Shown here: piece after piece, positions 1 through 6,573 of the stretch | Position numbering within the stretch: the stretch's first letter is position 1 | How the letters are laid out: every line of letters begins with the position of its first letter | Program-made: the position numbers and the translations under genes | NCBI RefSeq assembly: GCF_000371805.1 | Contig: NZ_AQUK01000001.1 | Coordinates: 880,268 to 944,267 of the forward strand | Direction of reading: 5' to 3' | DNA length: 64,000 nucleotides | Source: Methanocaldococcus villosus KIN24-T80 | Lineage (GTDB): Archaea; AGJL01; Methanococci; Methanococcales; Methanocaldococcaceae | Notes under the pieces: model-generated | Databases searched by the model: none | Told to the model about the DNA's origin: nothing | Seen by the model: the letters and a program-made list of their open reading frames with translations, nothing else

Positions 1-120
1 TTAAATTATATCTGTTATAAAGAGGAAATTAAAAGATGTAAAATATGTGGATTTCCATCAAATAATGAAATATGTAAAGTCTGTTCTTGGCTTAAGGTGA
101 TTGAAAATGGATTTAGATGA
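1..120 (+). CDS. C-terminal end of a TtuA/Ncs6-type tRNA 2-thiolation protein (partial)
   Basis: Frame 1 is open from the window edge to a TGA at 118-120. The 39 residues contain a Cys-rich zinc-finger tail with two CxxC pairs (CKIC and CKVC). This is typical of the C terminus of archaeal TtuA/NcsA/Ctu1 ATP-pyrophosphatases, which thiolate tRNA uridine. The body of the gene lies to the left, outside the window, so the PP-loop motif cannot be checked. The last 14 bases overlap the start of rpa, implying translational coupling. M. jannaschii has a protein of this family close to its rpa gene, which supports the call. Any protein ending in a small zinc ribbon would look similar. Confidence 0.6.
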   Translation, partial: LNYICYKEEIKRCKICGFPSNNEICKVCSWLKVIENGFR

Positions 121-1921
121 GTATAAGAAACTAAAGAAAAAGGTTATGGAAAAATTGAAAATTGATGAACAAACATTGGATAAGATGATTGATGAAAAAT
201 ACAATGAATATGGAGGAATATTATTAAAAACTGGAATACTATATTTAATAGCAAAAGAGCATGGAATTGATTTAAAAGAGGAAGAATTTTTAATAAAAGA
301 TATAAAAGAAGGGATGATTGTTGATATTATTGGTGTTGTTAGAAAAGTTTATGATGTGAAGGAGTATGATGGTAAAAAAGTAAGAAAAATAATAATAGCT
401 GATAAATCTGGATCAATAACTGTAAGTTTATGGAATGAATTGGCAGACATTGAAATAAAGGAGGGAGATGTAATAAGATTAAAAAGGGTTAAAGCAAGGA
501 AATGGAATAAAAGATTAGAACTTACATCTTTACCAGAGACAGAGATAGAGATTTTAGAAGATTATAAAATAGAATTACCTGAATATAAAATCTCTGATCT
601 CATCCCAGGAATGGTTGTTGAGTTAGAGGGGGAAGTAGTTTTAGCCTTCCCTGTAAAGGAGTTTGAAAAGGATAATAAAAAGTTAAAATTAAAGTCTTTT
701 AATTTAAGAGATGAGACTGGAGTAATAAGAGTTGTTTTATGGAATGAACTAACTGAAATAGATGTTAGGAGAGGAGATTTTGTTAAAGTAAAAGGAGTGG
801 TAAAAGAGGGTTACTATGGAGGTTTAGAGATAGTAGCTGATGAGGTAGAAATTATTGAAAGAGGAGAGAAAATTGAAAGTGAAGTGGTAAATATAAAGGA
901 TCTTCATAACTATGAAAATGAAATTGTCTCAGTTAGAGGAAAAGTTTTAGCTTTAGGGAATAAAAAGATTGTTAATATTGATGGGAAAAGAAATAAGGTT
1001 CAAGAGATACTGTTAGATGATGGTAGTGGAAAAGTTAAGATAACTTTTTGGAAAGGATTGATAAATCTTTTAGAAAATATAAAAGAAGGAGATATAATAA
1101 AGGTTACTAATTGTAAAGTTAAATCTTACATTGATAGAGAGGGAAATATAAGATATGACCTTATAGCCACAATAGATTCAGAAGTTATAAAAGAAGGAGA
1201 AAGTGAATATAAAATAAAATTCGTTAAAATAAAAGATATTGTAAATAAAGAAGTAGATTGGGAAGATATAAACTTAATAGCAATAGTTGTTGACATAACT
1301 GAGCATGAGTTTGATGGGAGAAAGGTTAAAAATATTTTATTAGAGGATGACACAGGGAGAATAAGGTTATCTATTTGGGAGGATTTAGATATAGATATAG
1401 AAGAAGGAGATTTTATAAAAGTGTATCATGCATATGCAAAAGAGAGGGATGATTATATAGACCTCTATTTGGGAAGATTTGGAAGGATAGAGAAGAGTGA
1501 TGAAAGAGTAATAAAAAGAAAGTTTATAGCTGATCTCCTACCTGGAGATAAAGTTGAGATAAGGGGAACAATAGTTGAGGTTTTAAATGAAGAACCATTT
1601 ATTTACATGTGTCCAAACTGTAGGAAGATTATAACAGAGGAGGTATGTGAAGACTGTAAAGTAGAGGCTGAAAAGGTTTTAAGGTTAAATGTTATTTTAG
1701 ATGATGGTACAGGGGTTATTACATGCAGACTGTATAATAAAAAGGTTGAAAGGCTATTAAAAATCTTTAATGTTTTAATAGAAAACTTCAAAGAGAAATT
1801 ATTAGGAGAGGAGATTATATTTTATGGTAATGTTAAAGATCAATTTATTGTTAGGGCATTAAAACCTGTTAATGTTGATGAAGAAATTAAAATTTTGAGT
1901 GGGATAAAAGATGAAAGTTGA
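107..1921 (+). CDS. rpa: Replication protein A (single-stranded DNA-binding protein), large subunit
   Basis: This is the ssDNA-binding protein for replication, recombination and repair. The roughly 604 residues hold repeated OB-fold modules, each with a signature like 'D.sG.i.v.lWnel': near residues 65-140, 160-250, 265-350 and 370-455. A fifth C-terminal OB module (about 460-590) has a four-Cys zinc finger, CPNC then CEDC eight residues later. This multi-OB architecture with one zinc finger is that of M. jannaschii MJ1159. ATG 107 was chosen over the in-frame TTG at 101 because AAGGTGA (94-100) sits correctly ahead of it. The 3' end overlaps the PHP gene by 11 nt, so the two are co-transcribed. 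Confidence 0.93.
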   Translation: MDLDEYKKLKKKVMEKLKIDEQTLDKMIDEKYNEYGGILLKTGILYLIAKEHGIDLKEEEFLIKDIKEGMIVDIIGVVRKVYDVKEYDGKKVRKIIIADKSGSITVSLWNELADIEIKEGDVIRLKRVKARKWNKRLELTSLPETEIEILEDYKIELPEYKISDLIPGMVVELEGEVVLAFPVKEFEKDNKKLKLKSFNLRDETGVIRVVLWNELTEIDVRRGDFVKVKGVVKEGYYGGLEIVADEVEIIERGEKIESEVVNIKDLHNYENEIVSVRGKVLALGNKKIVNIDGKRNKVQEILLDDGSGKVKITFWKGLINLLENIKEGDIIKVTNCKVKSYIDREGNIRYDLIATIDSEVIKEGESEYKIKFVKIKDIVNKEVDWEDINLIAIVVDITEHEFDGRKVKNILLEDDTGRIRLSIWEDLDIDIEEGDFIKVYHAYAKERDDYIDLYLGRFGRIEKSDERVIKRKFIADLLPGDKVEIRGTIVEVLNEEPFIYMCPNCRKIITEEVCEDCKVEAEKVLRLNVILDDGTGVITCRLYNKKVERLLKIFNVLIENFKEKLLGEEIIFYGNVKDQFIVRALKPVNVDEEIKILSGIKDES

Positions 1922-5480: not shown

Positions 5481-5516
5481 TGGGTATGCCTCCCATGAAA
5501 GGGTTTGGCATACCCA
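5481..5516 (-). promoter_or_regulatory. Putative SECIS element in the selD 3' UTR
   Basis: On the minus strand a 10-bp outer stem (UGGGUAUGCC with GGCAUACCCA) encloses an internal loop of AAA on the 5' side and A on the 3' side. A 3-bp CCC/GGG stem and a six-base UUUCAU loop follow. Archaeal SECIS elements, as I recall them, lie in 3' UTRs and have this 3:1 purine loop (GAA:A) under a short GC stem. The first loop base here is A, not G. The hairpin lies 34 nt after the selD stop, where the element is expected. Confidence 0.75.
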
Positions 5517-5533
5517 TCAAACATTTTTAACTT

Positions 5534-5552
5534 ACTGCCCAGCACTGAGCTT
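5534..5552 (-). repeat. 19-nt element in the selD 3' UTR, complementary to the Sec-codon region (right arm at 6502-6520)
   Basis: Plus-strand ACTGCCCAGCACTGAGCTT is the exact reverse complement of 6502-6520, and the match stops at both ends. In selD mRNA this segment begins inside the UAA stop codon and ends 17 nt before the SECIS-like hairpin. It could pair perfectly with the segment just after the UGA selenocysteine codon. Its G+C content is far above the surroundings, so chance is unlikely. Confidence 0.85.
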
Positions 5553-6573
5553 AAACTTCAATAATCTTTGGGTTTTTTAGCACTGCTTTTCCTTCTCCTC
5601 TTTTAACTTCTCCAACTTCAAAAGCATATCCTACTTTTTCTAATTCATCAATTAGATCATCTTTATATTCTTTTTTAGCAGATATTAATAACCCTCCTGC
5701 AGTTTCAGCTCCATAACCTTCTAATAATGGATGTCCAAACATTTTACTTAATTCTGGTGTTTTTTTAATACACGGTAGTGCTTTAATTTCTATAAGCTTT
5801 TTACTGAATTTAGCTATCTCATTACTATGTCCTAATATTCCAAAACCAGTTACATCAGTTAAAGCATTAGCTATTCTATCACCAACTCTCTCTTCAGCTT
5901 TTCTTAATGCCATTAAAGCATATCTATTTGATGTTGTCATAAGTTCAATTGCTTTATCTATAATTTCCTTTATTTCTTCCTCACTTAAACCTATAAACTC
6001 CTTAAACTCATCAGGAACCCTACTTAAAGCCATAGCTGTCTGTGTTCCTAATGGTTTTGTTAAAATTAATAAATCTCCTTCTTTAGCTCCAGCTTTAGTT
6101 AATAATTCTTCTTCTTTTCCAACTCCTGTAACCGCTCCTCCTATCAATGGCCAAGGATTTATTATAGTATGCCCACCAACTATAGATGTTTTATTCTCCC
6201 TACAGAAATCTTGAAATCCTCTTAACATCTCTTTAGAAATTTCAATAGGGAATTTTTCAGGAAAACCAATTATACATAGAACACCTATAATATCTAAAAA
6301 TCCCATAGCATAAATATCACTTGTTGAATTACAAGCTGCAATTTTTCCCTGTATATAAGGATCATCAACTATTGGGGTAAAAACATCAACAGTTTTTGCT
6401 ATTAGTATATCCCCCCTTTTAATTACAGCTGCATCATCCCCTAAACCAACAACCACATCTTTTAAATCTTCTTCAAAAACTATTCCATTAACTAAATTTT
6501 CAAGCTCAGTGCTGGGCAGTTTGCAAGCTCATCCATGTAGTTTAACCATTTCTGTTAGTTTTATTTTTTTCAT
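5551..6573 (-). CDS. selD: Selenide, water dikinase (selenophosphate synthetase) with in-frame UGA selenocysteine
   Basis: SelD makes selenophosphate, the selenium donor for Sec-tRNA, from selenide and ATP. A plain ORF begins only at 6456, which lacks the conserved N terminus. Reading through one TGA (6529-6531) extends it to ATG 6573, preceded by GGTGAT, and gives 340 residues. The added N terminus reads ...VKLHGUACKLPSTEL, placing Sec15 at the catalytic Cys position (Cys17 in E. coli) with Cys17 and Lys18 following. The nucleotide-binding GLGDDAAV and GGHTI motifs follow. M. jannaschii SelD is a known selenoprotein. The gene lies 10 nt behind cofA and is probably co-transcribed with it. A SECIS-like hairpin follows the stop. 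Confidence 0.95.
6502..6520 (-). repeat. 19-nt element just downstream of the selD UGA(Sec) codon (left arm at 5534-5552)
   Basis: Plus-strand AAGCTCAGTGCTGGGCAGT is the exact inverse of 5534-5552. On the mRNA it begins 8 nt after the UGA codon and encodes the conserved residues around LPSTEL. Pairing of the two arms would bring the SECIS hairpin next to the recoded codon. Confidence 0.85.

Follow-up and report, generated by a model that had tools for sequence, protein, structure and literature searches.

The selD mRNA of Methanocaldococcus villosus carries two 19-nt arms, one just 3′ of the selenocysteine (Sec) UGA codon and the other in the 3′ UTR beside the SECIS hairpin, that are perfectly complementary and that covary among relatives. 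Comparable arms occur in other selenoprotein genes with a distant SECIS, and we consider it likely that a docking helix of this kind is a general architecture in Methanococcales, including a unit in the genome studied here that would act only in trans. The capacity for pairing, the covariation, the gene specificity, the spacing and the position of the arms are shown from sequence; the presence of the helix in cells, an increase in Sec insertion and the trans-acting RNA are inferred.

Complementarity between the selD coding region and its 3′ UTR

We analyzed a window of 64,000 nt from the M. villosus KIN24-T80 genome (contig NZ_AQUK01000001.1, positions 880,268 to 944,267), in which the selD locus has the following parts.

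5551..6573, minus strand: selD, coding for selenophosphate synthetase (340 aa, Sec at codon 15); the frame is open when TGA is taken as Sec
6529..6531, minus strand: Sec UGA codon in the HGUACK active-site motif; from translation, context conserved in relatives
6502..6520, minus strand: CDS arm, coding for part of KLPSTELE; covaries with the 3′ arm
5534..5552, minus strand: 3′ UTR arm, perfect complement of the CDS arm; covariation, matched in 15 loci
5516..5533, minus strand: 18-nt linker from the 3′ arm to the SECIS; from sequence
5482..5515, minus strand: archaeal SECIS hairpin; from sequence and a SECIS covariance model match

The sequence at 5534-5552 is the exact reverse complement of that at 6502-6520, and the complementarity reaches 22 nt with one mismatch (5534-5555 with 6499-6520). 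The CDS arm begins 8 nt 3′ of the UGA, the 3′ UTR arm starts inside the UAA stop codon (5553..5551), and 11 of the 19 nt are G or C (58%). An initial annotation, made from the sequence alone, had described this perfect match with the same coordinates, G+C content, 8-nt offset and start in the stop codon, all of which held; its figure of 17 nt between the arm and the SECIS was off by one, the measured distance being 18 nt.

The selD hairpin has the layout GGGUAUGCC-AAA-CCC..GGG-A-GGCAUACCC and was matched by a SECIS covariance model at 5483-5514 (E = 5e-4), with no other match in the window. Its kink-turn-like motif is AAA_A, the usual form being GAA_A; an AAA/A variant has been reported to function with reduced capacity (PMC11881835). 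Thus selD meets the criteria for an archaeal selenoprotein mRNA of an in-frame UGA in a conserved active-site motif and, albeit with the variant motif in this species, of a SECIS hairpin. The SECIS finder and the covariance models were custom-built. The first model (R1) resembled selD too closely to be applied to whole genomes; the second (R2) detects the SECIS elements of vhuD, vhuU, fwuB and selD and the stand-alone units described below, and misses those of the hdrA type.

A chance origin of the arms was rejected by two kinds of shuffling. Shuffles of the window gave an expectation of 0.01 such matches, and the longest complement between the 200 nt downstream of the UGA and the 3′ UTR, 19 nt in selD, was 7.7 ± 1.0 nt in dinucleotide shuffles (maximum 10); pooled over five genes, such shuffles of the 3′ UTR gave a mean of 7.8 nt and a maximum of 12 in 300. 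The 19-mer has only two sites genome-wide and no third copy with up to three mismatches, and the shuffles and this search together uphold the initial claim that the match is very unlikely by chance. Having just two genomic copies also led us to reject a repeated or mobile element. A C/D-box guide RNA was rejected when no D box was seen by eye after the arm, and the selD region has no Rfam family match at the gathering score. No local inverted repeat was reported at the selD UGA, the partner of the post-UGA sequence lying ∼950 nt downstream, and no cross-arms were found between selD and the 3′ UTRs of other genes.

Covariation of the selD arms among relatives

We sampled 36 Methanococci genomes, of which 33 have a clear selD orthologue. 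A matched arm occurs in every one of the 15 selD loci found in Methanocaldococcus and Methanotorris. They come from all 13 Methanocaldococcus genomes for which selD could be identified, the window's among them, and from genomes G034 and G035, which we take to be Methanotorris. Exact pairing extends over 17-22 nt in these loci, with a mismatch near one end in genome G010, and every cell of the core alignment is a Watson-Crick pair (225 of 225), without G-U. Seven pairs have changed on both sides, involving 23 cells, and the covariation score of 0.232 was not reached in any of 500 shuffles (0.090 in shuffled alignments). When the register was slid, paired cells fell from 90% to 22-44%. Mapped on a tree inferred from the remainder of selD, the core underwent at least eight independent compensatory double changes. 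Changes in the coding sequence (CTG/CTT/CTC, AGC/AGT, ACC/ACT/GCT, GAG/GAA/GAT and TTA/CTT/TTG) are mirrored in the UTR, except where the helix is ragged at its outer end. The UTR arm is still matched where it lies 24 nt past the stop codon (G004) or 7-8 nt past it (G008 and G013), and its distance to the SECIS varies among relatives. A thermodynamic model gave the arms a pairing probability of 0.98 at 37°C and 0.94 at 85°C, compared with 0.00 and 0.02, respectively, for arm-less selD of the Methanococcus type.

The compensatory changes for which the initial annotation proposed to search in Methanocaldococcaceae are therefore present, and the outcome that it named as refuting, loss of the arm in close relatives that still decode the UGA, was not met within Methanocaldococcus and Methanotorris. 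The selD genes of Methanococcus, Methanothermococcus and their relatives have no arm, though they decode UGA at the same distance, from which we conclude that docking by such an arm is not obligatory. Arms were likewise not found in Asgard-type selD loci.

Arms in other selenoprotein genes with a distant SECIS

We identified the other selenoprotein genes through family searches and applied to them the arm scan used for selD. Those with over 900 nt between UGA and SECIS (fwuB, hdrA and fwdB2) mostly have arms. In fwuB, arms of 14-26 nt at UGA+26..29 were found in 19 of 31 loci, extending to Methanothermococcus-type genomes, and three Methanococcus-type genomes have arms of 10-11 nt; across the class the fwuB arms covary at five pairs (16 cells), a result matched by none of 500 shuffles. 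The hdrA arms are 15-28 nt long at UGA+28..53 (16 of 30 loci), some of the cis arms being partly decayed (G004 and G007), and four thermophile copies of fwdB2, the second Sec-type fwdB, have arms of 17-19 nt at UGA+30..32. In fdhA, 15-17 nt at UGA+28..30 can pair with the 5′ UTR (7 of 9 loci), and some genomes also show complementarity at UGA+45. Arms were absent from nine Cys-type FwdB paralogues examined at the same distance, where the longest complement was at the background level of 7-9 nt, and no conserved arm was found in vhuU, fruA or vhuD, in which the UGA is 39-372 nt from the stop codon and the SECIS is near.

The arms start at +9 to +13 in selD, +26 to +29 in fwuB and +28 to +53 in hdrA, and none overlaps the UGA. 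The gap that separates the UTR arm from the internal loop of the SECIS is 23-28 nt in fwuB and 26-32 nt in 13 of 15 hdrA measurements, the two automatic values of 6 nt probably reflecting mis-located motifs; in selD it is 23-49 nt with one outlier at 88. A near-constant gap between arm and SECIS, together with arms that stay clear of the UGA, is what docking of the SECIS near the UGA predicts.

As a separate observation, the hdrA 3′ UTRs of five genomes (G000, the window's genome, G003, G008, G009 and G013; loci L226, L229, L219, L230 and L220, respectively) contain a short AUGA...UGAU-like hairpin in place of a canonical SECIS. This hairpin lacks the GAA_A motif, yet the hdrA UGA is retained. 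Because R2 misses hdrA-type elements, the absence of a SECIS from hdrA rests on the custom finder and inspection, and its absence in cis in these five genomes is less certain than that for fwuB described below. Use by hdrA of the vhuD SECIS directly downstream also remains possible.

A stand-alone SECIS unit with guides for two genes

In Methanocaldococcus, the two fwuB arms in the fwuB 3′ region enclose 21-23 nt that are perfectly complementary to hdrA (UGA+10..12), 7 kb upstream, so that hdrA and fwuB both have guides on a single SECIS. Neither the guide unit nor any SECIS is present after fwuB in the window's genome (G000). A search with the SECIS core instead located a unit at C1:315,296, ∼447 kb from hdrA and fwuB (C1:757-764 kb), and stand-alone units were also found in other loci.

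G000:C1 ∼315,230-315,335 (L249 1432-1535): stand-alone SECIS unit, ∼100 nt
L252 ∼1433-1530: stand-alone SECIS unit
L254 ∼1480-1590, minus strand: stand-alone SECIS unit

The G000 unit sits between two genes that are on the strand opposite to it and consists, in order, of guide 1 (fwuB UGA+109, 14 nt), guide 2 (hdrA UGA+10, 23 nt) and guide 3 (fwuB UGA+29, 17 nt), followed by a linker and then by a SECIS of canonical form (E = 3.8e-8). So far from its targets, it could work only in trans, as an RNA of its own. The G009 unit shares a contig with neither target, and its guides match the fwuB and hdrA sequences of G009 itself, which have diverged. The G003 unit, flanked by ksgA and an aminotransferase gene, is only ∼3.8 kb beyond fwuB, and a shared transcript is therefore not excluded. 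Among ten distinct rows from 11 genomes, ten target-guide pairs have changed on both sides (2.4 in shuffles, none of 500 as high), and G-U pairs are also present. In the contexts that we inspected by eye, guide 1 is preceded at a distance of 22-25 nt by a TATA-like octamer; the exception is G011, where the upstream sequence is unrelated. The stand-alone RNA has no match in Rfam.

G000, G003 and G009 form one clade in the selD tree. In each, a single FwdB was found, which contains UGA (fwuB), and no SECIS was found within 1.5 kb downstream of it. Because this is the sole FwdB found and it lacks a SECIS in cis, we conclude that fwuB in these genomes needs a SECIS from elsewhere. We therefore predict that the stand-alone unit is a trans-acting SECIS guide RNA, its transcription and function being inferred from sequence; as a separate RNA of ∼100 nt it would be predicted to begin near GGGGUGGGCGUG. 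The bolder reading, that this guide-SECIS RNA directs Sec insertion in trans for the mRNAs of two methanogenesis genes, fwuB and hdrA, in the clade of the window's genome, seems to us likely, with transcription and trans function again inferred.

An ACACGUC-like linker between guide 3 and the SECIS is common to the stand-alone and fwuB 3′ units of several genomes and is not explained by guide pairing.

A docking model and alternative explanations

In the model we propose, the two selD arms would form a long-range helix in the mRNA that holds the 3′ UTR SECIS near the UGA, so that selenocysteine factors bound to the SECIS would be at hand when the UGA occupies the ribosomal A site. All of the helix would be 3′ of the UGA, at the mRNA entry channel or beyond it, and could thus persist during decoding; the advancing ribosome would unwind it, after which it would re-form. 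The same scheme would apply to distant-SECIS genes generally (selD, fwuB, fwdB2 and hdrA, and fdhA via its 5′ UTR), which tend to bear SECIS-adjacent antisense arms of 10-28 nt. The earlier suggestion that long-range pairing brings the SECIS to the UGA is thus supported by covariation and by the comparison with other genes, with formation of the helix in cells and an effect on Sec insertion remaining inferences.

Several observations count against the docking model. Besides the arm-less selD genes of other genera and the partly decayed hdrA arms, they include published reporter tests in M. maripaludis. Complementary flanks on a 5′ SECIS caused no significant change in activity, and mRNA was about threefold lower, equivalent to only twofold more activity per mRNA (PMC11881835); moreover, no strict distance limit was found (PMC9622424). 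It is possible that the arms matter most at high temperature or low selenium.

The initial annotation had also raised a roadblock and autoregulation, and experiments have not separated these from docking. Under these alternatives, the helix would mainly slow the ribosome at or after the UGA, or would act as a selenium- or SelD-dependent switch of selD. The selD helix does start 8 nt past the UGA, near the mRNA entry channel, and such spacing is typical of readthrough stimulators; SelD makes the selenium donor, and feedback is therefore plausible. However, like arms are found in fwuB, fwdB2, hdrA and fdhA, which are outside the selenium pathway and in which the arms start at +26 to +53, outside the ribosome. 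Furthermore, what is constrained is the distance from arm to SECIS, and arms are lacking in genes whose SECIS is close by. Docking is thus favored by the comparison among genes, and we consider the roadblock and autoregulation unlikely. Still less probable is an explanation at the level of DNA, in which an inverted duplication without RNA function is held identical by gene conversion. The selD core is all Watson-Crick with no G-U, as conversion would yield, but the arms adjoin the SECIS and always leave the UGA free, they are absent from Cys paralogues, and their boundaries stay at ∼20 nt while the flanking spacers vary in length. In addition, hdrA and the trans guides contain G-U pairs and mismatches, and guides 447 kb away or on another contig still track their targets.

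For the stand-alone RNA, the alternative is that it regulates hdrA and fwuB by antisense pairing, for instance as a repressor responding to the supply of Sec-tRNA through its SECIS, rather than donating SECIS function. Antisense sRNAs are common, and many Methanocaldococcus genomes retain a cis SECIS on hdrA. Nevertheless, a SECIS must be supplied to the UGA-containing fwuB of G000, G003 and G009, and the spacing between guide and SECIS resembles that of the cis arms. We therefore consider a regulator an improbable reading and retain that of a trans-acting SECIS donor.

Relation to known systems

The closest precedent is fdhA1, for which flanks of a 5′-UTR SECIS complementary to the ORF have been reported (RNA Biol 2025, PMC11881835); they are longer in thermophiles, and the fdhA pairing was reproduced in our analysis. 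In both genes a UTR SECIS adjoins a complement of the coding region 3′ of the UGA, and selD meets the fdhA1-type criterion that this complement be perfect. Unlike fdhA1, selD has its SECIS in the 3′ UTR and an arm on one side only, with a partner just 8 nt from the UGA. It thus fails the criterion of flanks on both sides of a 5′ UTR SECIS, its single arm being 5′ of the 3′-UTR SECIS, and also that of conservation across Methanococcales, the arm being confined to Methanocaldococcus and Methanotorris. Searching the text of PMC11881835 for selD and complementarity, we found fdhA1 named and did not find selD, hdrA or fwuB arms or a trans form. A wider search of the open-access literature, which did not cover subscription papers and supplements, found no selD, fwuB or hdrA arms and no trans-acting SECIS. 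The initial claim that no such element had been described was therefore partly upheld: the fdhA1 flanks are published, no account of the selD arm was found in these searches, and we regard the selD arm as a new variant of fdhA1-type flanks.

Other systems are less similar. In bacteria, a structure next to the UGA likewise recruits the Sec elongation factor, but there the hairpin itself follows the UGA, whereas in selD a distant hairpin would be brought by a separate helix; selD fails the bacterial-type criterion of a local hairpin directly downstream of the UGA. The readthrough elements of tombusviruses (PMC3234231) and of PEMV1/PLRV (PMC9553062) also pair sequence 3′ of a recoded stop codon with a distant 3′ element; these are viral and involve neither a SECIS nor Sec-tRNA, and the resemblance, by analogy, is one of mechanism only. 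The Rfam family RF01737 (flpD RNA, listed as cis-regulatory) matches the hdrA 3′-UTR SECIS of a M. jannaschii-like genome (L172 4453-4498). It models the hairpin alone, without arms, and matches neither selD nor the stand-alone RNA.

No archaeal SECIS-binding factor is known (PMC2933860, PMC11881835). The covarying arms offer a concrete and mutable answer to how an archaeal UTR SECIS reaches a ribosome at a distant UGA, as well as a rule for finding the SECIS partners of selenoproteins. To our knowledge, a SECIS has not been found to act other than in cis; if the trans reading is true, a SECIS carried by a guide RNA that base-pairs with its targets would constitute a categorically new type of recoding device. 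The stand-alone unit suggests that base pairing can program recoding in trans, a principle that could be exploited to direct selenocysteine to codons of choice.

An in-frame insert in selD of Jordarchaeia/Freyarchaeota

All four Jordarchaeia/Freyarchaeota selD loci (L040, L041, L042 and L046) contain a 30-nt in-frame insert that ends in UAA, ∼270-300 nt into the gene. The insert (in L041, VY[NVNHPDLHA*]AIG) folds as a 9-bp hairpin, and its excision restores the conserved SelD sequence. It may be a tiny spliced intron or a bypassed segment, both of which we mention only as possibilities.
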